A DNA stretch of 41,497 nt, taken from a virus. The position numbers were made by a program, and so were the translations under genes. The DNA is taken from IMG/VR virus record IMGVR_UViG_3300017991_000192, positions 1 through 41,497 of that record; one strand, given 5' to 3'. Below the pieces are notes generated by a model. It was not told where the DNA came from and made no database searches. It saw only the letters and a program-made list of their open reading frames with translations. Each line of letters starts with the position of its first letter. Position 1 is the first letter of the stretch. Of the stretch, positions 7,451-38,149 are shown in pieces.

Positions 7451-8314
7451 TTAAAGAATAGAGGATCGAGCCAACTTATCAGTGACTTCTTTACGATAAG
7501 CCGGATCAGTTTTATAGCGAGGATCACGCATTGCGTCCGTAACCTGAGCCCTGGACGCGAAAACGGAACCATGAACATCAGAGCTGTCACCAGACAGAAG
7601 CTTAGGATCTTTACCATTAGCGGCCTCATACTTAGACTGTAAGCCACTCACCGCCAACATTGCATCTTCAGCAGTTCCAGCAGTCACTGCGCGATCATAA
7701 GCAGCGATCTCAGCTTGAGTCATATTTTCTGCAGCCCATGTGACCATCTCGTTGTAGTGATCTTGACCACCGACATGATCATAAACTTCCTGATAAAAAG
7801 TCGTGGCTAAAGCTTCCTGGCCAGCGATATACTGATCGACATACTCACGAGGAATGCCAGCTTTTTCCAGCTTGGCATAAGATTCATCGGTGAGGGTGCC
7901 CTTTTCCGCATATTCGGCGGTCAGATCTTCCATCTTCAAACCCGCTTTTTCCACGGCTTTATCGGCAGCATCAGCATCAGCATCCGGATCAGCATTGTCA
8001 GCATCGGCATTGTCAGCATCGGCATTGTCAGCATCGGCATCGGCATCAGCCGGTTTGCTCTGCTTTTTCTCCAGTTCAATATAACTTTGAGCCAGAGCCT
8101 CTGCGTTGACTTCACCAGTTTCAGCGTTCCAAAATTTCTCAGGACACCACTCCGGGCGTTCAGAAGCAGCCGCAAGACTCGGATCATCATCCGGTCTATC
8201 CATAGGATTAGGCGTGATGATTTTACCATCCACATCTACGACGTCACCATTCTCATTTGTCCCAGGAGCATTCGCTGGTGTGTCCTCAGAGTTTAATACA
8301 ATACGTTCAACCAT
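7451..8314 (-). CDS. Scaffolding (capsid assembly) protein, gp9-like
   Basis: A 287-residue, very acidic protein between portal and capsid, the position and size of T7 gp9 (307 residues), which drives procapsid assembly and is then lost. The N-terminal half is disordered in appearance and contains a low-complexity Asp/Ala/Asn tract (about residues 93-120). That tract is encoded by a 15-bp unit repeated three times around 7991-8037. The segment RPEWCPEKFWNAETGEVNAE near residue 53 is typical of this family. The C-terminus is helical and basic. The start is ATG with AAGGAGG 6 nt upstream. Confidence 0.92.
   Translation of the reverse strand: MVERIVLNSEDTPANAPGTNENGDVVDVDGKIITPNPMDRPDDDPSLAAASERPEWCPEKFWNAETGEVNAEALAQSYIELEKKQSKPADADADADNADADNADADNADPDADADAADKAVEKAGLKMEDLTAEYAEKGTLTDESYAKLEKAGIPREYVDQYIAGQEALATTFYQEVYDHVGGQDHYNEMVTWAAENMTQAEIAAYDRAVTAGTAEDAMLAVSGLQSKYEAANGKDPKLLSGDSSDVHGSVFASRAQVTDAMRDPRYKTDPAYRKEVTDKLARSSIL
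7991..8037. repeat. Three-copy 15-bp tandem repeat inside the scaffold gene
   Basis: On the plus strand the unit CATTGTCAGCATCGG occurs three times in a row. On the minus strand it encodes repeats of Ala-Asp-Asn-Ala-Asp. Copy number can change by slippage without breaking the frame, so this is a likely length polymorphism. Confidence 0.85.
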
Positions 8315-14074: not shown

Positions 14075-15904
14075 TTAATGTGTTTCAGCCCAAGACTGAC
14101 CGATCTTATACTCCCCGTCTAAGGGACACCGAAACTTAAAGTGTTCTCCAGCCTTTTTAATGGCCTCTACACCAGTTGAACCTACAGCGTCAGCAACACC
14201 TTCCAGGGAATCAACCTGCCACTCGTCATGGATATTGGCGCAGAATTCATAATGAACTCCAGGCTCTAAACCACACAGAGTTTTTTGTTGAAGATCGGCA
14301 TCAAATATAGCCAGAGCTTTCTTCATGACAATTGCCCCCGCACCTTGCAGTAAAGTGTTCAAGGCTGAATGCGGAGATCTAACGTGCAAATGTCTGCCGT
14401 CGAGACCAATGAGATATCCCCGTTTACAGGCAGCTTGAACTCCAGCTTGTAATTTAGAGAGAGCCGGGAGATTGGCGAGAAACGTTTTACGTAACTTACC
14501 ACCTGCTCCGGCACCTTTCTTAAGGAGTTCTCCAAGCTTTGCATTACCTGCTCCGTAAAGGAAGGCATAGACAAATCTTTTAGCAAGGTCCCTGTATTTA
14601 TCTTCCTCCGGGAGGCCGAGTCGCTCTCGATTGTAACTGTGTATGTCAGACTTAAGGATAATTTCTCCATATTCACCTCCATCCCACCGTGCCATATAGT
14701 GTGCCAGACACCGCAGCTCTAAACCTGATGCGTCAATACCAACTAAAGCTCCAAGTCGAGGAACAAACAGACTGCGACATTCCTTGCCATACGGTTTATA
14801 CACTGCCGGGACCTGCGCCACATTTGGGTGGCTATGTGTCATTCGACCGGTTACCGCACCATTCGAATTGACCGAACCATAAATCACACCTTCCCGTTCC
14901 TGTTTAAGCCACGCTTGAGTTCCCTCGGCCAACTGTGAGATCCTCTTATCTACAGTCAGGTATTCAGACAGGATAGGTGCTTCAGGATATTTCAACTTCG
15001 AGATGACCACCTCGTCAACTTGCGGTTTGCCACCGCCCGTGAAAACTGAAGGCTTCCACCCGCGAAGCTTGATTAAACGGTCCGCGATATGATCACGAGA
15101 CGCAGCATTAAATTCAACCAACTTAACGCGCGTCATAGGACAATCTTTTGTATATCTGTAACGCTTGTTGTTAGCTTTAGGTGTGAAACTCTTCGCTGTC
15201 CCTGGGGCTCTCCACCCATCTTTTGGGACATACCACGGCTTGAAAGTGTCTTGAAGTTGCGCCTCCAGTTCCTTTTTCTTTTTGACCAACTGGGCGTATA
15301 GCGATCCTCCAGCATCAGTATCAAAACCAAACCCATACTCCTCTTGTCGCCACACAATCTGCGCAACTTTATGCTCTAAGTCCAAGGCTTCCGGGCTGTA
15401 CTTTTTGGTTTCAATCAGTGTGAGAAGATCGTCAGTAACACGCACATCTTGCTCGCAATAGTCATCCATTTCAGGTGTCCACGTTCCCCAAGGTCCCTTA
15501 AAATCTCCCTTATAATTTCCGAGACGATATCCCCAAGCCTCCAAGGACTGCTTACCATAGATATTTCTTGGGATCTTACCCTTACGCATGGCAACTGCAT
15601 CGCGATCTTTCAGATCCGTCCAAATAAGTTTTGCCATAACAAACGTGTCTAGTACTTTACCTTTGGGTTCAAACCCAGGGTACACCTTCTTGATTGCAGG
15701 GATATCAAACCGAATAATGTTGTGACCACAGATGACGTCTGCTTTCATCAGCCACTGCAATCCCTCTGCAAGTGTGTCCATTGCGGGTGTGTTCCGAAAC
15801 CGGTAAACGGTCTTCTTCCCATGCACCCGCACGGACATACAATGGATCTTTGTTAATTCATCGAGCAAGCCGTCGGTCTCTATGTCAAAGACCAATGTTT
15901 GCAC
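14075..15904 (-). CDS. Family A DNA polymerase (gp5-like)
   Basis: A 609-residue protein. The N-terminal 3'-5' exonuclease has VFDIETDGLL (Asp7, Glu9) and ICGHNIIRFDIPA. The polymerase domain has motif A GIDASGLELRCLAHY (Asp391), motif B KRFVYAFLYGAGNAKLG, and motif C NIHDEWQVD (His-Asp560-Glu). T7 gp5 has 704 residues; this one is shorter, and I do not see an obvious thioredoxin-binding insertion, though I could not align it. The start is GTG, overlapping the TAG of the RNA ligase gene by one base, with GGAGG upstream. It replicates the phage genome with the primase-helicase. Confidence 0.96.
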   Translation of the reverse strand: MQTLVFDIETDGLLDELTKIHCMSVRVHGKKTVYRFRNTPAMDTLAEGLQWLMKADVICGHNIIRFDIPAIKKVYPGFEPKGKVLDTFVMAKLIWTDLKDRDAVAMRKGKIPRNIYGKQSLEAWGYRLGNYKGDFKGPWGTWTPEMDDYCEQDVRVTDDLLTLIETKKYSPEALDLEHKVAQIVWRQEEYGFGFDTDAGGSLYAQLVKKKKELEAQLQDTFKPWYVPKDGWRAPGTAKSFTPKANNKRYRYTKDCPMTRVKLVEFNAASRDHIADRLIKLRGWKPSVFTGGGKPQVDEVVISKLKYPEAPILSEYLTVDKRISQLAEGTQAWLKQEREGVIYGSVNSNGAVTGRMTHSHPNVAQVPAVYKPYGKECRSLFVPRLGALVGIDASGLELRCLAHYMARWDGGEYGEIILKSDIHSYNRERLGLPEEDKYRDLAKRFVYAFLYGAGNAKLGELLKKGAGAGGKLRKTFLANLPALSKLQAGVQAACKRGYLIGLDGRHLHVRSPHSALNTLLQGAGAIVMKKALAIFDADLQQKTLCGLEPGVHYEFCANIHDEWQVDSLEGVADAVGSTGVEAIKKAGEHFKFRCPLDGEYKIGQSWAETH

Positions 15905-16839
15905 TATAGTTCCTCCTTTAACAAGTGGGCAATCGTACTCCCCACGTTATATACGGCCCGAATTTCCTTTTTATCCAAAACGTCAAGCGCGTCCCCCGCA
16001 TCTGCAAGAAACTCTTGGCGGGCATCGTCTAAGATCCTCTGGATATATGTCCCAATTTGGCTGGACTCTTCAATCGGACCGTATTTAGAAAACACACTAA
16101 GCATCCGATTCCGTGTAATGTATGTGCGAAACGTAGCATTCAGCCGTTCAGCACGGGTATCTCCAAGTTTGACTTTCTTCTTGGCCCGCTTCTCGCGCTC
16201 GCTGAACTCCGGGTTTTTCTTCTTGAGATAGAAAGGACCACCATCAATAAAATAAACTTCCTGTGTCCACCACGGTTTGATAACAACACCCTCCATCAGG
16301 TTTCCAGGCTTTGGGTTTAAACTCGTAGGCCTCTTGATGTCATAATCCAAAGCGACTTGAAGACCGTTACACCACGCGATCACAGGGCACAGCATCGAGA
16401 GTATGTGTAAATCGTCTTGAAAGAAGTTATACGCAGTCTTGGCTGGCATAAGCTTTCCGTTTATTCTGACGTCAAAAAACTTTATGTCCTGTTTCTCCCC
16501 ATACTCCACGCGATTCTGAATACCAGGACCAAACAATTCACCACAAAGCGTCACCGGAACACGGGAAGAGTCTACAAATTTTTGGACACGTTTCCATGCA
16601 TCCTGATAATATTCAAGGACTCCCCACACGTTATAAAAATGATCTCCCTTGCAGCGGATCTGCTTACGCGAAGCAACTTGCATTTCGGAATCAGGAGAAA
16701 AGATAAGCTGCAAGTTTGCGCCGTCTATTTTTTCCTGAAGGACATACACCTCATTTTCCAGTTCCGGAAAAGTCGCCAACACTTTGCGTATAAACGCTCG
16801 TTGGTAACTGTTCTGGATTTCGGGATATTTCTTAAACAT
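15904..16839 (-). CDS. RNA ligase of the T4 Rnl2 type
   Basis: A 311-residue nucleotidyltransferase. Motif I is LQEKIDGANL, with the adenylated lysine at K37. Motif III is in CGELFGPGIQNRV, motif IV is MEGVVIKPW, and motif V is FYLKKKNPEFSE. The last is followed by a helical C-terminal domain with a TYITRNRMLSVFSKYGPI block, very like T4 Rnl2. Rnl2 seals nicks in double-stranded RNA and RNA-templated ends with ATP. T7 carries a DNA ligase instead, and I see no DNA ligase in this window. The start is ATG after AAGGAGG. It overlaps DNA polymerase by one base. A DNA-joining role cannot be excluded from sequence. Confidence 0.87.
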   Translation of the reverse strand: MFKKYPEIQNSYQRAFIRKVLATFPELENEVYVLQEKIDGANLQLIFSPDSEMQVASRKQIRCKGDHFYNVWGVLEYYQDAWKRVQKFVDSSRVPVTLCGELFGPGIQNRVEYGEKQDIKFFDVRINGKLMPAKTAYNFFQDDLHILSMLCPVIAWCNGLQVALDYDIKRPTSLNPKPGNLMEGVVIKPWWTQEVYFIDGGPFYLKKKNPEFSEREKRAKKKVKLGDTRAERLNATFRTYITRNRMLSVFSKYGPIEESSQIGTYIQRILDDARQEFLADAGDALDVLDKKEIRAVYNVGSTIAHLLKEEL

Positions 16840-22752: not shown

Positions 22753-22774
22753 TCCTTATATGAGGGAGGGGTCT
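22753..22774 (-). promoter_or_regulatory. Phage RNA polymerase promoter, replication operon copy
   Basis: Exact copy of the 22-bp element found at 10318-10339 and 30026-30047. Its upstream edge overlaps the last bases of the RNA polymerase stop codon, and it points into the replication genes. The CCCTCATATAAGGA core resembles the T3 promoter core. This is the expected place for a class II promoter. Confidence 0.82.
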
Positions 22775-25217
22775 ATGCAAAGAAATATTCGGACTGTTCG
22801 ACACCTCTCAAATCTAAGGAACCAAAATCCGGTAACTCAGGAAGTTTATCTTGGAGTTTTTCTGGTATCTGATCTAGAAGATCCTCCCGAAACACATTAA
22901 GAACATCAACTGAATACATCTCGCAAAAAGCCTCTCGAAGAAGAAAGCTCAAGATCTCCATGTCCGCAGCGAGACAACCATAGCTGTCATGCACCATCGA
23001 AAACGCGCGGAGACCCACTTTATAACACTTATTGATCGAGAGCATCATGTGCGCAGCGTCCATCGAGTGTACGTAATTAGGAGCGATGCCCTGGGTTTGC
23101 TTCCGCTTATCTAAAGCGTTCGTTTCTTCATGCACCACGGTTTGTAGGCGCACTGACCCAATAATTAACTCCAAACGTTTTGTGTTATAACGATTATACT
23201 TCTGCATTACGCGCAACCCTGTGGGTGCCTTCCAGTGAATCGGAAGATCCCCCTTCGACACAACTCTAGCGGCCTCTTGCAGCCAGTCCATCGCTTGCCG
23301 TGCAGCGACCACAACTTCCCCGATAGCCTTATAGACAATCTCCGCAAGATAGCGGCAAGCGGGCCACCACATCTTTTTATCAGCGATATAGTAGTGGCCC
23401 TTCTCAGTCGCCTGTTTTTGAAGCTCAGCAATAAGTTGATTACACATGCCGTTTTGAGTCGCCCCATAGGGTAACGTCATGACGTTTCTCTTGACCAACT
23501 TTCGGTCAATCTTATCAACCCACAATTTTGCCCACTTGTTTCCCTCAACCTCAGCCTCAATCTCGATCCGTCCGGCGACGACATCTGCAACTTGCTGGTA
23601 GATATCTTGAGGTTTGTCTGCAGGAATCAGATTGACCGCAGCACCTCCAACTTCATCCCGAAGCATCGCACTAAAATTTTGGAGACCATTACAGGCACCA
23701 TCCACTGCCACGGGCAGGTGCGACACAAACCCCTCCGGATCATTCCAATAGCCGTCGAGCTCATAACAACACGCGAGAAACTGGTATGGCTTATCAGCCT
23801 CAACCCACCACCGATTTCTAAAAGGTTGCACAGTCGATGCAACGATATCCTCAGCATGGTCTTTTACCCACTGGACACGATCCTCAAGGGAGGCTTTGTC
23901 GTAGCCATAGCAATTTGCAGTGTGAATCATGAGCCAACGAAGAGCCTTTTTATCCAGGCGTTTACCCTGTGCAAACTCTAGGAGCCCTTTCGCTGTATCA
24001 TCCCCCTGCGGATTAAGGAATACAGGCAGAGGGTACGCACGCCCGCGCCAGTCCAACTGATAGGGAAAATAAAACCGAGGTTCACTTTTAAACCGACGAG
24101 CAATGGTGATTTTCTTGGCAAGGGCAGCTACCTTAGACTTCGTGCGCCAATTTTGCTCGTAAACTGCGGAGGCCTGTTTCTTCCACTCCTTCAACACCTC
24201 TTTATCATCATCAAAACAACTGTGATTCTTCATCCGTGAGATAGTGGAGTTACACTGCGGGCATAGCGGCAAGGGCATCTCGTCGCGCCGAGGAAGACCG
24301 AGCTCCTGATCTCCTCCCAGTTCCCAGGCCTCCACCAAAACGTCGTAAACATTGCGATTAATACGCCACGCCGTATCTTGGAGGGCATTCACTGCCTGAT
24401 AAACCGGCTGACAATCCATGCCGTCTAACTCTTGGATGTACTGCTGGTTTCGAGTTTTAACGAGAGGAAATTTATTGATCTTCTGCGAGAGGTACCCGCC
24501 ACCGCGCGCTCCCTGCCATGGGCGCGGCTTGACCAACATCGGGAGCAACACAGGGAAAAGCAGGGCGCAATCGTCGTGCGCCTTCTGGAGATACTCCAAA
24601 GTTTCGGGAGCAGCCTGTAGAGTGGATTTTCTCCACTTCTTATCCCGAATCGCCACAATTTGGCTCAACTGCGTCGAATCACAAAAGATCCCTATAAGGC
24701 GAGCACCTAGTCTGATTTTCTCGGCATGTGGCCAGTCCTCCTGGGTAATCCCTGCCCACTTCGCGGACCGCTTTAAGAGAATCCTTTTGTACCTGTAACT
24801 GGTGGCTTTACGAACACCTTCTTTTACATGCCGATACAGGCCCGCATTCTCTTCTTGGAAAATTGAAAAATTCAATTCATCTTCTAAAAGGTTTGCAATC
24901 TCCAAAGCTACAGCACTCACACTGTGCCGTGAGGCAATCGCATTGACACACTGTCGGGCAGTGATAAAGGCGACAACGTCTGAATCGAACGACTTGAGAT
25001 ACGTCTTAATCTGCCCCAACTGATGCTTTGGTGTGATCGCCCTATTCTCACAGAACTCTGTAATCGCCTGTGAAAGGGGCTCAATGGCGTCCAGAATCAG
25101 TCGTTGACCAGGAGGCATGTCTGCCTCACCCCGCTTCGCACGAGTCTCCCGGTACTGCGCAACTCCCATAGCGACTGACTCCTCTTCTAACTGGTACTGC
25201 CTCTCCACTGTATTCAT
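22773..25217 (-). CDS. Single-subunit DNA-dependent RNA polymerase (T7 gp1-like)
   Basis: An 814-residue protein (T7 has 883). Catalytic motifs are complete: motif A PVAVDGACNGLQNFSAM (Asp506), motif B KRNVMTLPYGATQNG (Lys576, Tyr584), and motif C MVHDSYGCLA (Asp744). It also has GIAPNYVHSMDAAHM and the conserved FYFPYQLDWRGRAYPLP block. It transcribes phage genes from its own promoters, for which the three 22-bp repeats are the candidates. The ATG follows AGGAGA. A sigma70-like promoter and two operator-like repeats lie just upstream, so expression is probably host-driven and repressible. Confidence 0.97.
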   Translation of the reverse strand: MNTVERQYQLEEESVAMGVAQYRETRAKRGEADMPPGQRLILDAIEPLSQAITEFCENRAITPKHQLGQIKTYLKSFDSDVVAFITARQCVNAIASRHSVSAVALEIANLLEDELNFSIFQEENAGLYRHVKEGVRKATSYRYKRILLKRSAKWAGITQEDWPHAEKIRLGARLIGIFCDSTQLSQIVAIRDKKWRKSTLQAAPETLEYLQKAHDDCALLFPVLLPMLVKPRPWQGARGGGYLSQKINKFPLVKTRNQQYIQELDGMDCQPVYQAVNALQDTAWRINRNVYDVLVEAWELGGDQELGLPRRDEMPLPLCPQCNSTISRMKNHSCFDDDKEVLKEWKKQASAVYEQNWRTKSKVAALAKKITIARRFKSEPRFYFPYQLDWRGRAYPLPVFLNPQGDDTAKGLLEFAQGKRLDKKALRWLMIHTANCYGYDKASLEDRVQWVKDHAEDIVASTVQPFRNRWWVEADKPYQFLACCYELDGYWNDPEGFVSHLPVAVDGACNGLQNFSAMLRDEVGGAAVNLIPADKPQDIYQQVADVVAGRIEIEAEVEGNKWAKLWVDKIDRKLVKRNVMTLPYGATQNGMCNQLIAELQKQATEKGHYYIADKKMWWPACRYLAEIVYKAIGEVVVAARQAMDWLQEAARVVSKGDLPIHWKAPTGLRVMQKYNRYNTKRLELIIGSVRLQTVVHEETNALDKRKQTQGIAPNYVHSMDAAHMMLSINKCYKVGLRAFSMVHDSYGCLAADMEILSFLLREAFCEMYSVDVLNVFREDLLDQIPEKLQDKLPELPDFGSLDLRGVEQSEYFFA

Positions 25218-25232
25218 TCAGATCTCCTGTCC

Positions 25233-25261
25233 ATAAAAATTTGAGTTACGAAATTTGACAA
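25233..25261 (-). promoter_or_regulatory. Candidate host promoter for the RNA polymerase gene
   Basis: On the minus strand TTGTCA (25261-25256), a 17-bp spacer and TTTTAT (25238-25233). The expected start is only about 9 nt before the ATG, so the leader would begin at the ribosome site. One copy of the repeat GTAACTCAAATTTT fills the spacer, which suits repression by a DNA-binding protein such as the upstream XRE-like product. This is an inference from spacing. Confidence 0.45.
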
Positions 25262-25312: not shown

Positions 25313-25353
25313 TAAAAGTGGGCCAACAGGTTTGTACCTATCAGCCCACTTTA
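25313..25353 (-). terminator. Rho-independent terminator after the minus-strand integrase
   Basis: A long hairpin on the minus strand: outer arms AAAGTGGGC and GCCCACTTT, with an inner extension TGATAGGT/ACCTGTTG (some G-T pairs) and loop ACAA, followed by TTTTAG. It starts 8 nt after the integrase stop and separates the HTH-integrase pair from the RNA polymerase gene. RNA polymerase therefore needs its own promoter or readthrough. Confidence 0.85.
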
Positions 25354-25360
25354 TGTGACG

Positions 25361-26182
25361 TTAAACAGAGTAACTAGGTGGGATACTCTCAGCCCGCTCC
25401 AGGAGAGACACAGCATCTTGGAGTTGAGCTGGATTAAGGTGAGCATACCGTTCTGTCACGTGAATCGTTGAGTGCCCTAACCAGCGTTGAACCACATATA
25501 AAGACACTCCCTTTTGAACTAAACGCGACGCGCAGGTATGTCGTAACGTGTGGATGGTAACTTCAATCGCTGGACGTGTTTTCCGAAACAGATATTTCAC
25601 TCGATTATCACTCAGCGTAAACTTGTTCCGATGCTTCAGAATTTGTACGACACGTTTTGTCATTGGCACTGACCTGGGACGATCATTCTTAGATTCCCAA
25701 ATCATAATTAGATTATGATCAAAATCTACATCTTTCCGGACCAGTCGCAGAGCCTCAGATAGCCGCATCCCAGTATCTACCAGGATAACCACCAGATCAG
25801 CCATCTCGTCTTCACCTAAAGACCGCAGCTCAGAAACAATCTGATTTTCTTCATCCTCAGACAGGACGTGAAAACGTGTGGGTTTTTCAGCCGTACGGTA
25901 TTTGTTAAACCGAGGCATCGTGATCACTTCCCCCCAGTCCTCCTGAGCAAGCCTCAGAATCGTCTGCAAGGTGGATAACTTCCGGTTTATCGTCGTAGCA
26001 CCATTGCCTTCCTTCCTGAATCGATTGACCAACTCTTGAAGAGTCTTCTCGGTAATCTTTGATAGTGAAATTTCACCGAGATGCCGCTCCAGGTGCCGAC
26101 AATTTGACGCTACTGATCGATACGACCGGCTTGAATTCCAGTGTTCACGTAGTGCGCGTAAAGTTGCGTCAGCAAGTTTCAT
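25361..26182 (-). CDS. Tyrosine recombinase / integrase (early-region copy)
   Basis: A 273-residue protein. The SAM-like N-terminal core-binding domain (about residues 1-90) is followed by the catalytic domain with all active-site residues: Arg140 (DTGMRLSEAL), Lys165 (ESKND), His211-x-x-Arg214 (HTLRHTCASRL), His237 (WLGHST) and Tyr246 (ERYAHL). It resembles XerC/D-like phage integrases. No arm-binding AP2-type N-terminal domain is evident. It overlaps the HTH gene by 4 nt (ATGA) and lies just upstream of the RNA polymerase gene, where integrase-bearing marine T7-like phages such as P-SSP7 keep theirs. A second integrase lies at 32177-33151. Confidence 0.95.
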   Translation of the reverse strand: MKLADATLRALREHWNSSRSYRSVASNCRHLERHLGEISLSKITEKTLQELVNRFRKEGNGATTINRKLSTLQTILRLAQEDWGEVITMPRFNKYRTAEKPTRFHVLSEDEENQIVSELRSLGEDEMADLVVILVDTGMRLSEALRLVRKDVDFDHNLIMIWESKNDRPRSVPMTKRVVQILKHRNKFTLSDNRVKYLFRKTRPAIEVTIHTLRHTCASRLVQKGVSLYVVQRWLGHSTIHVTERYAHLNPAQLQDAVSLLERAESIPPSYSV

Positions 26183-26430
26183 TTTTTCTCCTTCTTCCCT
26201 GCGTACACTTCTGCTTCACATAGAAGCGGACTAGATGTTTCAACATAAGGATTGAACCAGCGTTCAGGCCACATCCAAGCTTCTCGTGATACTGTAGTCA
26301 CGGCTTCGAGATCCTCTGCCATCTTCCGGGAAATCGAACGTTGACCCCGGACGATATAACTCAACGAAACATGTGATATCCGCGCCCGACGCGCGATTTC
26401 TGCTTGAGTCATGAGTTCCCGTACGGTCAT
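26179..26430 (-). CDS. XRE-type HTH regulator (putative lysogeny repressor)
   Basis: An 83-residue protein with a classic Cro/C1-type HTH: LMTQAEIARRARISHVSLSY then IVRGQRSISRKMAEDLEAVT, ending in a Trp-rich AWMWPERWFNP segment. There is no C-terminal protease or oligomerisation domain, so it is smaller than a lambda-type repressor. It is coupled to the integrase by ATGA, has AGGAGG 9 nt upstream, and is preceded by a near-consensus host promoter. The pair looks like a lysogeny module. Likely targets are the operator-like repeats near the RNA polymerase promoter. It could instead be an excision or Cro-like control protein. Confidence 0.85.
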   Translation of the reverse strand: MTVRELMTQAEIARRARISHVSLSYIVRGQRSISRKMAEDLEAVTTVSREAWMWPERWFNPYVETSSPLLCEAEVYAGKKEKK

Positions 26431-30052: not shown

Positions 30053-30127
30053 TGGGGTGCCTGGAGGGATTCGAACCCTCTAAAAGATGGGCCACAACCA
30101 TCTCCCGCGCCATTTGGGTTCAGGCAC
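30053..30127 (-). tRNA. tRNA-His (anticodon GTG)
   Basis: A cloverleaf can be drawn: acceptor GTGCCTG/CAGGCAC, D arm with 3-bp stem CCC/GGG, anticodon stem GATGG/CCATC with loop TTGTGGC (anticodon GTG), and T arm GAGGG/CCCTC with loop TTCGAAT. Discriminator C73 and the CCA end (30055-30053) are encoded. Oddities are A at position 8 in place of the usual T, a short D stem, and T rather than G at position -1, although C73 would normally pair with G-1 in tRNA-His. It lies 15 nt after the terminase stop. It may be a working phage tRNA or a remnant. Confidence 0.78.
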
Positions 30128-30141
30128 ACCCGCAGATTCTA

Positions 30142-31800
30142 TTAAGCGTGAAACCATTTAGGGCCTTGTGGTTTAACTCCCATGACATGCTCAGCAAAGT
30201 GTGCGAGCTCCTTGTTGAGCTGTTCTTCACGCCACTCGTCGGCAGCAGAATCCTGTTCCTTTGCTAGCCGGTTTTTCCAGTAGGCGACACTTTCAGCGAC
30301 GGCGTCGAGACGGTCATCGTGTGCAAGAGCCCCGCGCTCCAGGGTCATTCGGGTCATCTGATAGAAGAGTTGGTAGTTGATGTCATCAGTTCCCCTGGCG
30401 TCGCGCCGGATCAGTTCTTCATCCACGATCAGTCTGTGTTGATTCATGACAGGCTCTAGGACGTCTATGATACGCCTTTCCTTCTGTACTGAATTGCGGA
30501 TTTCCGAAAGGGTTACCGTGTATTCGTGTTTCTTGAGGATTGGCTTCATGAGTTCCAGGAACATGCCGTCACCAAAGTTACTCTCAATGACGATCTCATG
30601 GACGCCACCTTCCTTGGCCTTTTCTGCAAGGGTGTTGAGTGTCTTCTCTTCGTAGCCTCCGGTGAAGCCACCGGCGTCACACAGGAAGATGTTTCCATGC
30701 ATCATCTTTGAGATGGCATATCCAGTTTCATCCCGGCCTCGACCGGCTGGATCGATGAGCATCACTGCACCTTGATAAGGCCGCCACTCTTTGTCCCACT
30801 TAAGGGGGCGGTATAGACGATCACCTTGGAGTCCAACCATGGGTAGGTCTTGTGGCCGGATCAGCTGTTCAGGACCAGAGCCATACATGAATTTGACTGG
30901 AGCTTTCTCCAGGTCAATATTCCAGACTATCAGGTCAGACAACTTGAGGGGATACTTGTTGGCATCACTGAGAGATGTATCCAACATGAATTGAAGGGCA
31001 AATCCGGAGCGTCCGTATGATGTTTCTCGTTCAATCAGGTCAAAGTCGTTAAAGCGTTCCGGATCAGTAGGAGCTCCTACTTCGAGTCGTGACTTGAGGA
31101 TGTAGGGCGCAAGTCGGTTTCCGAAGAATTTACGGAGGCGTTCTCCAGGCATTCGTGCGGGCCAGATCTTAACTTCGTATCCCCGGTTGGGAAGTACATT
31201 ATAGAGGGACATTTCACACTGAGGAGTCCCCAGGTAGATAATGCGGGAGTGCTTCGCAGGAGTAAGCACTGCGTCGAACTCTTTGACAGCCTCTGAGAGG
31301 CGTTCCCGCATGGTCAATGTGTAAGAGTTCTTAGGTACTTCGATATCGTCAGCTACTATAACATCGGCACGTGATCCTGCGAGCTGTCCAAAAATACCTA
31401 CTGATTTCACTGAAGGGGCATGGTGTGCCCTAGCAGGTCCGACATCGAAAGCAACGTTTGAGTCTCTCTGTTTATTTTTAGGCTGTAAATGCTGAAGGAT
31501 GTCCACCTCCGCGATCAGCCTTTTAGTAAATGTGGAGAAGGCGTCGGCTCTGTCTTTTGAAGCCGACACTACGAGAACTTTAAGTTGGGGATCTCTAAGG
31601 AGTAGCCACAGAACGAAAACAGACGTAATCCAGGACTTACCAACTCCTCGAAAAGCCTCGATGACAGAACGCTTAGGCCCGCGCTGGAGGTAATCAGAGA
31701 TGTCATCTTGAATGGGGGTTGGTGGGGGGAGCAGTAAGTGTTTCCAGATGTAGGCGACGAATTTCTTAAAGTCGGCTTTGAGTTCGTCTAAAGGTGACAT
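30142..31800 (-). CDS. Terminase large subunit (gp19-like)
   Basis: A 552-residue packaging motor (T7 gp19 has 586). The ATPase domain has Walker A FRGVGKSW near residues 50-57, VLVVSASKDRADAFSTF, and Walker B VIVADDIEV. The nuclease domain has VMLIDPAGRGRDETGYAISK (catalytic Asp) and an Asp pair near ALAHDDRLDAVAE. It cuts concatemers and pumps DNA into proheads. The start is ATG after GGAGG. I find no recognisable small terminase gene beside it. Confidence 0.96.
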   Translation of the reverse strand: MSPLDELKADFKKFVAYIWKHLLLPPPTPIQDDISDYLQRGPKRSVIEAFRGVGKSWITSVFVLWLLLRDPQLKVLVVSASKDRADAFSTFTKRLIAEVDILQHLQPKNKQRDSNVAFDVGPARAHHAPSVKSVGIFGQLAGSRADVIVADDIEVPKNSYTLTMRERLSEAVKEFDAVLTPAKHSRIIYLGTPQCEMSLYNVLPNRGYEVKIWPARMPGERLRKFFGNRLAPYILKSRLEVGAPTDPERFNDFDLIERETSYGRSGFALQFMLDTSLSDANKYPLKLSDLIVWNIDLEKAPVKFMYGSGPEQLIRPQDLPMVGLQGDRLYRPLKWDKEWRPYQGAVMLIDPAGRGRDETGYAISKMMHGNIFLCDAGGFTGGYEEKTLNTLAEKAKEGGVHEIVIESNFGDGMFLELMKPILKKHEYTVTLSEIRNSVQKERRIIDVLEPVMNQHRLIVDEELIRRDARGTDDINYQLFYQMTRMTLERGALAHDDRLDAVAESVAYWKNRLAKEQDSAADEWREEQLNKELAHFAEHVMGVKPQGPKWFHA

Positions 31801-32176: not shown

Positions 32177-33151
32177 ATGAGTATTTCAGGGAGAAAATTA
32201 AAAGTTGGGCTGCGATTTCGGTACGAGTTTCGGCATGAGGGTCAGCGCATACAGTCTCGATACACGTATCTCTCTAAGAGGGATGCCCGCGCTGCTGAAA
32301 AGGAACACCATGATAGACTTTCCGGAGAGACGTTGCGTGATTTGTTTAAGGCGCGACTTGAAGACATGAGATTGAAGGGGATGTCGCGAGACTATCTTTC
32401 AGAAAATCGCAGATATTATATCCGAGCTCAAAATGTGTGGGGAGAAAATACGCCGGTGCGAACCATCGACAAACCAAAAGCACACGATTTGATTCAACTC
32501 GAAGCTGCACGGCTGGCCCAGGCAGGAAAGACTAACCACAAATTAAATGGAATGATCCGGTGTCTCCGAGCTTTTTTCTACTGGAGTATCGACGAGCGGG
32601 GCATCATGATGGAGAATCCCTTCTATAAATTCAAGTTATATCCTATCGCATTGAAACAGAAATACATTCCGTCAGATCGACAGGTAGCCGCCGTCCGGAA
32701 ACTCTTGACGAGAAAGCAGCGATCTTTATTTGATTTTATAGAAGAAACAGGTTGCCGAATCATGGAGGCTGTCTCACTCCAAGTTGACGATATTAATTTG
32801 AGGGCACAGACTGTGACACTCTGGACGCGAAAAGCCAAGAATCGTAATCTAACTCCGCGCATCATTCCGTTTCCACACTGTTTAAAAGACAAGCAACTTC
32901 CGAAGGCTGGAGCCGTATTCAAGACCTGGGATGCTTATCCCCGGTTTTTAGAAGAGGCGATGGTGCTTTATAAAAAATCGCCGGTCGGCTATTTATCACC
33001 CACTTGGAGTTGGCACAATTTACGCCATCGAAGAGCCTCGCTGTGGGCTGCTGCAGGTATGAGCACCTTTGAGATAATGTCACGGTTGGGCCACAATAAT
33101 CTCTCAACGACGATGCAGTATCTCCAACTCTTGGGTTATTCAGCCCTTTAA
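32177..33151 (+). CDS. Tyrosine integrase next to attP
   Basis: A 324-residue protein on the plus strand. I start at the ATG at 32177 with GGGAGG 6 nt upstream. The N-terminal 40 residues (LKVGLRFRYEFRHEGQRIQS) look like an AP2-type arm-binding domain. A SAM-like core-binding domain follows, and then the catalytic domain with Arg194 (ETGCRIMEAVSL), Lys near 219-221, His280-x-x-Arg283 (HNLRHRRAS), His306 (RLGHNN) and Tyr315 (MQYLQL). All active residues are present. The attP-like tRNA fragment begins 95 bp downstream. Opposite strand, own ribosome site and adjoining att site mark it as an integration cassette. Confidence 0.95.
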   Translation: MSISGRKLKVGLRFRYEFRHEGQRIQSRYTYLSKRDARAAEKEHHDRLSGETLRDLFKARLEDMRLKGMSRDYLSENRRYYIRAQNVWGENTPVRTIDKPKAHDLIQLEAARLAQAGKTNHKLNGMIRCLRAFFYWSIDERGIMMENPFYKFKLYPIALKQKYIPSDRQVAAVRKLLTRKQRSLFDFIEETGCRIMEAVSLQVDDINLRAQTVTLWTRKAKNRNLTPRIIPFPHCLKDKQLPKAGAVFKTWDAYPRFLEEAMVLYKKSPVGYLSPTWSWHNLRHRRASLWAAAGMSTFEIMSRLGHNNLSTTMQYLQLLGYSAL

Positions 33152-33167
33152 AGGGGGAACACAGGTA

Positions 33168-33399
33168 GAGGGTAGAGGGGTACCCTCTGGAGGGTATTTC
33201 CTGAAATAAACATTAAGTAAATACAAGATGTTATGGGCTACTAGCCAGGACTTAAAATCCCTTATCGCTTGCCGGTGTGCGGGTTCGATTCCCGCCCCAG
33301 GCACCATAAATCAGTAATTAAATGAGGGAGTTAGCATAAGGACAGACTGCTCCTTTAAATAATGCTCGGAGGGTACCCCCGGTCTTGTAGGATACCCTC
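33168..33399. repeat. GAGGGTA heptamers flanking attP (candidate integrase arm sites)
   Basis: GAGGGTA or its complement occurs at 33168-33174 (+), 33181-33187 (-), 33190-33196 (+), 33369-33375 (+) and 33393-33399 (-). They lie on both sides of the tRNA fragment at about 50-90 bp. Placement and orientation resemble arm-type or accessory binding sites in attP. The right pair also forms a hairpin after the 262-residue gene. Confidence 0.55.
33246..33306 (+). other. Putative attP core: 3' part of a tRNA-Leu(UAA) gene
   Basis: From the anticodon arm to CCA this matches a tRNA-Leu: loop CTTAAAA (anticodon TAA), long variable arm TATCG/CGGTG, T arm GCGGG/CCCGC with loop TTCGATT, acceptor 3' strand CCCAGGC, discriminator A, CCA. 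The 5' half (acceptor 5' strand and D arm) is absent upstream. Phages that integrate into tRNA genes carry exactly such a 3' segment, so recombination restores the host gene. It lies 95 bp after the plus-strand integrase. Confidence 0.88.
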
Positions 33400-33409
33400 C
33401 AAGATGTTT

Positions 33410-34198
33410 TTACGTCCAACTCAGCGACGCATCCTCAAACTCCATGGAGACCGACAGGCCTTTGGCAGCCGTCCCGGAGTGTATAGCATCGATATCGATG
33501 TAGATCATATCTCCGGTTTGAACGTCGTCATAAGATGTGTTGACAACACCATCGCTGGCAAAGAGTTCATCGCCAATGGTAACTTTGGTGGAAAGCATGT
33601 CTCTGTGCTTCTCAGGGATAATGCTTCCAGTGCCAATCGTCTTATTGGCTTCCGCGACGAGGGCGGCGTTGGTGACCTCAAAGTAATCGTCATCCACGGC
33701 AGTTATGGTGAAGGTTCCGTTGTTGCCCGCATTGAAATTCTGTGCCGCAATACGGAGCACATCTCCCGCTTTCAGGGAGGCCAGGGAATCAGCTATGACA
33801 GGATCAGTTCCGGTACCGTCATAGGTATACCGTGCGGTGTTGCCGCCCTGATCTGTAATGTCAAACTGGGTGGTTGAATCTCCCAGGGCCGCAGTTTGTC
33901 GTACCCGTCGGAGCTGAATGTCACAGCTTCCTGTCACACCAAGAACCGAATTGGCTGCGGTGACGCCGGTCAGATTGAAACCATTCATAGAGGCGGGCAC
34001 CACGAAACCAGCGAGGCCGTCGGCTACTGCACAATCGGTATCAGCAGCCACCACACTTCTTTCAATCAGTTTCTGGAGGACCTGCAGATCATCCAGGCTC
34101 TTCTCTGTGGACTGGCCACATGTAATGTCCCGGATGGTAATCATGTCAGTACGAACGAGGGTTCTCAATGCCGGGAAAACTTCAGTAGGATCGCTCAT
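33410..34198 (-). CDS. Unrecognised protein downstream of the tail fibre genes (possible structural)
   Basis: A 262-residue protein starting at the ATG at 34198 with AAGGAG 9 nt upstream. It is rich in Thr, Asp, Gly, Val and Ala with many short beta-like segments (GNTARYTYDGTGTDPVIADS, GDVLRIAAQNFNAGNNGTF), typical of phage decoration or fibre-associated proteins. The segment NAGNNGTFTITAVDDDYFEV recurs in phage baseplate or fibre beta domains. It is the last virion-side gene before the integration cassette. The function is inferred only from composition and place. Confidence 0.75.
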   Translation of the reverse strand: MSDPTEVFPALRTLVRTDMITIRDITCGQSTEKSLDDLQVLQKLIERSVVAADTDCAVADGLAGFVVPASMNGFNLTGVTAANSVLGVTGSCDIQLRRVRQTAALGDSTTQFDITDQGGNTARYTYDGTGTDPVIADSLASLKAGDVLRIAAQNFNAGNNGTFTITAVDDDYFEVTNAALVAEANKTIGTGSIIPEKHRDMLSTKVTIGDELFASDGVVNTSYDDVQTGDMIYIDIDAIHSGTAAKGLSVSMEFEDASLSWT

Positions 34199-37168: not shown

Positions 37169-38149
37169 TTAAGAACTCTCTTCCCACTTTCCAACCATAA
37201 GCATATTTGTGCCGTCTGATTTAAAGATCATGATCAGTTTACTTCCAGATCCTGAAGGCGTGTCGGGCGTTCCAACAGCACCAAAATCAAAGACAGCGTT
37301 GAATGCGAGCGTCCGGTCAGAAGAGTCTTGAATGACAGTTAAACAATAAAAGGCTCCCGCTTTCTGATTTGTAGGGGCATTTAATGTTGTATTCTGGTCC
37401 AGCGTAAGCGTACACACTTGGTTACTCTCACAGTCCCAACTCACTGCGGCGGCAGGAGTCAGTGCTGATTCATCGAAGTTCTGTGTTTTGGTGAATTCAG
37501 TAGCGATCCCGGCGGCAGCTGCTCCAGCTTCGGCGGCTGTAACACTGTGTGGGTTTCCAGACGAGACGTCTTTATGTGCCACAGCGTTGGTCAGATCTGT
37601 ATTCGTCTGATCGTAAGTATCCAGGAGGGCCTTATTATCGTGCGAATGAACTTCATCAGCTTCGATTCCGTCTAAGAGAGTTTTGTTGTCATGTGAGTGT
37701 GTCGAAGCCGCTAATGCAAAGGCTTCCAGGTGTGCTTTGGTAACTGCATCCTGCGCCGCAGTCGGATCTGCCAGATTTGTGATCTTTCCGGAGTCAGCGT
37801 CGTAGTTGCCGTCATCACCTTTAATGAGTGAGTCTTCAGCATCATCCGCAGCTTCCTGAGAAATGTAGAAATTCTGTAACGCTGAATCATCCAGATCCTC
37901 TTCAGTAAGCGTTCCGGCATCTTGGAAGTTTACTGTGCGGCTATCTTTTGGGGTTGTTCGCTGAAACCGAATCGTCGCCCCTACAGCCGGAGCTGAATCC
38001 AACTCAACGGTACTGGCAGTCAACCACGTGAAATCAACTTCAACACCCGCTTCATAAGCGGTAACGTGGTCTGCTTCCAGGTATCCGAATGTGATGCTGA
38101 ATGGACCAGTACTTCCGGTAGAAGTGTATTCAACATAAGAATAGGCCAT
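37169..38149 (-). CDS. Tail fibre protein, T7 gp17-like N-terminal anchor
   Basis: A 326-residue protein. Residues 1-110 match the tail-binding domain of T7 gp17: an N-terminal YVEYTSTGSTGPFSITFGYL, then VELDSAPAVGATIRFQRTTP and LTEEDLDDSALQNFYISQEA. A helical and Asp/His-rich shaft follows (repeated HSHDNKTLLDGIEADEVHSH) and then a beta C-terminal domain with a FDFGAVGTPDTPSGSGSKL stretch. It is shorter than T7 gp17 (553 residues), consistent with an adaptor that carries the separate large spike protein encoded next. ATG after GGAG. Confidence 0.9.
   Translation of the reverse strand: MAYSYVEYTSTGSTGPFSITFGYLEADHVTAYEAGVEVDFTWLTASTVELDSAPAVGATIRFQRTTPKDSRTVNFQDAGTLTEEDLDDSALQNFYISQEAADDAEDSLIKGDDGNYDADSGKITNLADPTAAQDAVTKAHLEAFALAASTHSHDNKTLLDGIEADEVHSHDNKALLDTYDQTNTDLTNAVAHKDVSSGNPHSVTAAEAGAAAAGIATEFTKTQNFDESALTPAAAVSWDCESNQVCTLTLDQNTTLNAPTNQKAGAFYCLTVIQDSSDRTLAFNAVFDFGAVGTPDTPSGSGSKLIMIFKSDGTNMLMVGKWEESS

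Follow-up and report, generated by a model that had tools for sequence, protein, structure and literature searches.

The 41,497-nt stretch of DNA analysed here (positions 1–41,497 of the IMG/VR record IMGVR_UViG_3300017991_000192; hereafter, the window) very probably contains the attP site of a T7-like phage for a host tRNA-Leu(UAA) gene, with the adjoining tyrosine integrase, IntB, as its integrase and the module as an acquired one. The core, which is the 3′ half of tRNA-Leu(UAA), the repeats flanking it, and the adjacent integrase gene together identify the site as attP. An earlier note on this DNA had described a full attP module that would restore the host tRNA, and this description was supported by in-silico restoration of the tRNA and by the anatomy and junctions of related elements. 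We infer that the phage is a temperate T7-like podovirus that would form lysogens.

T7-like gene content of the window

The gene content of the window is T7-like and includes RNA polymerase, primase-helicase, DNA polymerase, portal, terminase, and T7-type tail fibre genes. The T7-like RNA polymerase gene (22773–25217, − strand; phrog_414, 2.1e-252) indicates where temperate T7-like phages usually have their integrase. The terminase large subunit gene (30142–31800, − strand; PF22530, 5.9e-39) lies on the integrase side of attP, and the gene for a protein with a T7-type tail fibre N-terminal domain (37169–38149, − strand; PF03906, 1.8e-36) lies on its other side. The window thus has the features that define Autographiviridae, namely a single-subunit RNA polymerase, a T7-type terminase, and tail and replication genes, as well as an integrase just upstream of the RNA polymerase. 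This last one is a second integrase, IntA, and IntB is additional to it. We discarded the possibility that the window represents an integrated prophage, since T7-like genes flank the tRNA segment on both sides and only a single copy of the segment is present. No end repeats were found in the 41,497-nt record; a frame is open across its joined ends, which is weak evidence for circularity.

ARAGORN detected a tRNA-His(GTG) gene at 30053–30127, beside the terminase gene, which was below the Rfam tRNA threshold. A tRNA-His near the integrase was also observed in the T7-like records L089 and L092. The repeat GTAACTCAAA recurs at 25240, 25292, and 28292 (− strand), upstream of the RNA polymerase gene and early genes, and is a possible phage promoter candidate.

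The 3′ half of tRNA-Leu(UAA) as the probable attP core

The attP core is located at 33248–33306 (+ strand), starting 96 nt after the end of the IntB gene, and comprises 59 nt of tRNA-Leu(UAA) from the anticodon stem to CCA. IntB and this segment are placed between the tail genes and the terminase gene, with IntB on the strand opposite to both. When positions 33240–33312 were used as a BLAST query, the part 33248–33306 was aligned to full tRNA-Leu(UAA) genes of two genomes sampled from one family, with 57/59 identical nt (97%) in the Desulfobacterales MAG G039, the closest tRNA found, and 56/59 nt (95%) in G040. The differences between the segment and the G039 tRNA are confined to the loop of the variable arm. 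The segment had been described earlier as 61 bases long; its assignment to the 3′ half of tRNA-Leu(UAA) stands, but the match extends over 59 nt, and the two preceding bases differ from those of the host.

No tRNA was reported by ARAGORN from the segment alone, indicating that the 5′ half is absent, in agreement with the earlier note. When the host 5′ half was joined in silico to the phage segment, ARAGORN recognised tRNA-Leu(taa), and no tRNA was recognised in the reciprocal joint. The core therefore matches part of a host tRNA gene and would restore this gene on integration. Most likely, the segment is carried so that insertion leaves the host tRNA gene unbroken.

IntB and the heptamers flanking the core

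The IntB gene (32177–33151, + strand; likely start ATG at 32177 and stop at 33151) encodes a 324-aa tyrosine integrase consisting of an N-terminal region of the arm-binding kind and a catalytic domain (PF00589, 5.1e-12; phrog_1, 1.7e-32). It ends 16 nt before the first heptamer, and this spacing and the domain matches bear out the previous statement that an integrase gene is adjacent. R194, H280, R283, H306, and Y315 of IntB were invariant among 10 aligned integrases, and the catalytic residues of the integrase adjoining the core are thus intact.

The heptamer GAGGGTA (TACCCTC on the other strand) is present in three copies on the integrase side of the core and two copies beyond it. The putative P arm-type sites are copy 1 (33168–33174, + strand), copy 2 (33181–33187, − strand), and copy 3 (33190–33196, + strand), and the putative P′ arm-type sites are copy 4 (33369–33375, + strand) and copy 5 (33393–33399, − strand). 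The whole window contains 8 copies versus 3.21 expected, and 5 of the 8 lie within 232 nt around the core. A non-trivial 7-mer occurring five times within 240 nt was obtained in 0/200 dinucleotide shuffles of the window; any 7-mer was counted in this control, which allows for the word being chosen after looking. The cluster of five heptamers is not a product of chance, and the five copies in both orientations noticed earlier around the core hold against this control. The GAGGGTA copies may serve as arm-type sites of IntB, to which its N-terminal region would bind. The real window has two such clusters, one around the attP core and the other near 8 kb, where the tandem-like short repeats CAGCATC and ATCGGCA are found at 7961–8039 inside the gene after the portal gene.

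The two P′ heptamers form a hairpin (33363–33403, − strand; fold z −4.31), which may act as the terminator of the gene that ends at 33410, and a terminator-like match is located at 33381–33367 inside this region. The P repeats also fold (z −2.80), with copy 3 outside the main stem. Since a strong hairpin lies just after the gene ending at 33410, a terminator role of the P′ heptamers, sole or additional, is possible.

IntA and the origin of the integrase pair

IntA (25361–26182, − strand; PF00589, 1e-25; phrog_1, 3.1e-53), which was absent from the earlier note, is a 273-aa tyrosine integrase without an N-terminal arm-type region. Its gene is intact and in the usual T7-like place, 143 nt upstream of the RNA polymerase gene, and its catalytic residues were intact in an alignment of integrases. 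The 143 nt separating the two genes yielded no tRNA-like segment. A gene for a helix-turn-helix protein (26179–26430, − strand; HTH_3, 1.1e-6) overlaps the start of IntA and likely encodes a regulator co-transcribed with it. A long dyad was also observed between IntA and the RNA polymerase gene (25313–25352, − strand); by analogy with the one described 3′ of int in the available part of the LUZ100 report (PMC10134795), it is probably a terminator.

IntA showed 33–36% identity with the integrases of the T7-like records L102 and L103 and lacks their N-terminal ~57 residues; the identity of IntB with these integrases was only 22–29%. A tree of 68 integrase sequences split IntA, together with T7-like integrases (44 rows), from IntB, together with Desulfobacterales and viral relatives (24 rows), with support of 100/100, and IntB was grouped with Desulfobacterales integrases with support of 99/90 and 100/100. 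The tree rejects IntB as an ordinary T7-like integrase. IntB is foreign to T7-like viruses, and the module is likely of foreign origin.

PF00589 was matched twice in the window. Among 28 T7-like records (27 records over 33 kb from 80 RNA polymerase loci, plus ProddE), 26 had a match and two had more than one (G450 and G458). In G450, the best reading is a single integrase gene interrupted by the ends of the record; several matches are present in G458. The other set, which covered 38 of 80 terminase loci, was divided into 19/38 records with one match and 19/38 with none. From the tree split and the place of IntA, the simplest history is that the IntB–attP module was acquired by a T7-like phage already having IntA. 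The source was probably another kind of Desulfobacterota prophage, with the native IntA kept.

IntB-clade prophages in Desulfobacterales

Relatives of IntB were found in 36 of 389 Desulfobacterales genomes at E ≤ 1e-10, six of them with 36–47% identity. Single-sequence searches of viral_contigs gave no relatives of IntB or of IntA. A search of viral_contigs with the IntB-clade alignment gave six loci, of which L229 and L230 were left out of the clade as too distant. The IntB clade accordingly had 10 members, the six genome loci and the viral-contig loci L225–L228.

A full tRNA gene was present just downstream of the integrase in six of the 10 members: tRNA-Phe in L204, Leu-CAA in L205, Arg in L206, Lys in L209, Leu-UAG in L225, and Asp in L228. 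No tRNA was found near the integrase in L207, L208, and L227 (3/10), and the sequence of L226 ends at the integrase stop, so that its 3′ side carries no information. We found a distal copy of the tRNA in three of the four genome elements examined, that is, 46 bp (exact) in L204, 41 bp (exact; 5′ half of tRNA-Leu-CAA) in L205, and 53 bp at 89% in L209; for L206, none was found within the ~10 kb of available sequence. Paired 7-mers flank the core on either side, at similar distances, in L204 (−70/−59 and +118/+129) and L209 (−61/−49 and +115/+126), and none were detected around the L205 core by the same test.

The prophages L204, L205, L206, and L209 resemble the window in having a related integrase (35–43% by tblastn) that ends before a tRNA, together with distal tRNA repeats in three of them and arm-like repeats on both sides in two. 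They differ from it in their tRNA targets and arm sequences, the repeats of the window being unlike those of L204 and L209 in both sequence and orientation, and no T7-like genes were found near these elements. The tRNA-Lys prophage L209 also contains a second integrase (15069–16235) besides that of the IntB clade and is another two-integrase element.

Integration sites of T7-like relatives

L102 and L103, whose RNA polymerases are 35–41% identical to that of the window, carry the 3′ half of tRNA-Leu(UAA) between the integrase and RNA polymerase genes, with short repeats on both sides. In the Deltaproteobacteria MAG G041, tRNA-Leu(UAA) is occupied by an integrated L103-type phage: contig L210 leads from host DNA through a full tRNA-Leu(UAA) into phage DNA, and contig L211 from phage RNA polymerase DNA through the tRNA 3′ half into other DNA. 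A 72-nt core is common to L210, L211, and L103. Altogether, IntA-type integrases adjoin tRNA-Leu(UAA) 3′ halves in T7-like L102, L103, L252, and L268. Only the 39 of 80 RNA polymerase loci with at least 1,800 nt upstream were counted further, and 29/39 had a same-strand integrase upstream of the RNA polymerase. A stretch from the T arm to CCA lay between integrase and polymerase in 10/29 loci, which is an undercount because tRNA 5′ halves escape the pattern.

Five other T7-like records (L082, L083, L084, L086, and L093) have a full tRNA-Leu(UAA) gene no more than ~1 kb downstream of the integrase and are candidates for a tRNA-replacing integration mode. In bacterial genome contigs, tRNA-Leu(UAA) 3′ halves without a 5′ half were observed at L105, L108, L112, L141, and L148; they probably mark the ends or the attP sites of further integrated elements.

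Host lineage

For the species genomes, we used a host pattern that left the variable arm free and required the anticodon loop with its 3′ stem, the acceptor 3′ strand, and the T arm. It was found at 67 loci, and the titles of 61 of the 67 name Deltaproteobacteria, Desulfobacterota, or lineages thereof. The stem of the variable arm in the phage segment is common to the two closest loci, G039 and G040, and a third genome among the 389 of the order matched the segment at 93%. These results suggest that the host most likely belongs to Desulfobacterales (Desulfobacterota).

As a check, a search for a host tRNA identical over 33248–33306 had been proposed; the best match was the near match in G039, and no exact host was found. 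An exact 56-nt search gave 0 matches in genome_contigs and viral_contigs, and its variant with free variable-arm bases gave 0 in viral_contigs. No attL, attR, or prophage junction of the phage itself was found. Among the 389 genomes of the order to which G039 belongs, a search for T7-like prophages gave an RNA polymerase match in one, which was of the L103 type.

Discussion

Tyrosine integrases recognise core and arm sites, and strands are exchanged at the anticodon loop. In the window, the catalytic part of IntB would bind core sites around the anticodon loop, while its N-terminal part would bind the GAGGGTA arm sites. IntB would then recombine attP with the host tRNA-Leu(UAA) gene (attB), presumably exchanging strands close to the anticodon loop CTTAAAA. 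At one junction, the host 5′ half and the phage 3′ half would make up an intact tRNA, with the P′ arm and then the tail genes behind it; the other would have IntB, the P arm, and the leftover host 3′ half. IntA would have been retained in its place next to the RNA polymerase gene, where no tRNA-derived site can be recognised.

We considered three other explanations for parts of this arrangement. The heptamers could be parts of two hairpins ending convergent transcripts instead of integrase sites. IntB and the gene ending at 33410 do converge, and the folds of the P′ pair and the P repeats and the terminator-like match described above would fit such a role. However, hairpins require no common heptamer on both sides of the core, yet five identical copies are present, one of which (copy 3) is outside the main stem, and relatives have paired direct repeats on both sides of their cores. 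This explanation is therefore unlikely, and arm-site and terminator roles of the heptamers can coexist. It is also conceivable that the core still serves IntA from 7 kb away, with IntB accessory, or that both enzymes share the host site. T7-like relatives use tRNA-Leu(UAA) with IntA-type enzymes, which lie next to its 3′ half in L102, L103, L252, and L268, and IntA has kept its catalytic residues while no tRNA-like segment adjoins it in the 143 nt before the RNA polymerase gene. On the other hand, IntB directly adjoins the core, IntB-clade enzymes are habitually beside tRNA sites, and IntA has no N-terminal arm-binding region, although the short integrase of P-SSP7 also has none. We regard this role of IntA as quite improbable, and IntB rather than IntA would be the acting enzyme.

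The least probable of the three is that a past imprecise excision left the tRNA segment behind as an inactive relic and that the phage is now lytic. No lysogen of the phage was found, and in the available part of the report on T7-like cyanophages, these integrate at a tRNA-Leu site without stable lysogeny (PMC8776855). Arguments against this are the near-identity between the segment and a living tRNA, the intact state of both integrase frames, and the exact arm repeats. The reading of the site as the attP of IntB is thus preferred. A more far-reaching proposal, which we put forward only tentatively and hold to be doubtful, is that a complete foreign integrase–attP module was taken from an unrelated Desulfobacterota prophage and that two unrelated integrases serve one virus, either with both acting on tRNA-Leu(UAA) or with IntA working at a second site or in a different role, for example, excision or dimer resolution.

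According to the available part of the cyanophage report, T7-like P-SSP7 and S-TIP37 integrate at host tRNA-Leu, int and attP are needed in S-TIP37, and a tyrosine integrase is followed by part of the host tRNA-Leu gene, as in the window (PMC8776855). P-SSP7 has the tRNA 5′ half up to the anticodon, between int and RNA polymerase, whereas the window has the 3′ half, between tail and terminase genes. The window further differs from P-SSP7 and S-TIP37 in having two integrases, with the tRNA segment beside the unrelated one. Desulfovibrio phage ProddE (Autographiviridae, MZ666938) is likewise T7-like and has both a tyrosine integrase and the 3′ fragment of a tRNA. This fragment lies between integrase and RNA polymerase and is not from tRNA-Leu(UAA), and ProddE has, unlike the window, only one integrase, in the usual place. 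In LUZ100, an integrase and tRNA-Leu are located close to the RNA polymerase, and LUZ100 and related temperate T7-like phages share with the window an integrase beside the RNA polymerase and a tRNA-Leu nearby; in contrast to the window, no second integrase–attP module is mentioned for LUZ100 in the available part of its report (PMC10134795). In the tRNA-dependent lysogeny of actinobacteriophages, as described in the accessible part of the source (PMC10865867), a phage tRNA replaces the disrupted host tRNA. Such lysogeny is recognised by a very short core, an unrestored host tRNA, and a whole phage copy; in contrast, the 59-nt core of the window restores the host tRNA, and the single whole phage tRNA found is tRNA-His, not tRNA-Leu.

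The site therefore looks like a known mechanism in an unusual arrangement, that is, an acquired integration module and two integrases in a T7-like phage. This points to the ability of integration modules to pass between unrelated phages and to provide a T7-like phage with a second integrase. From the attP, the host lineage of an uncultured T7-like virus and its site of insertion can be predicted, and T7-like phages with evidence of tRNA-Leu integration thereby gain a host lineage that is probably sulfate-reducing.
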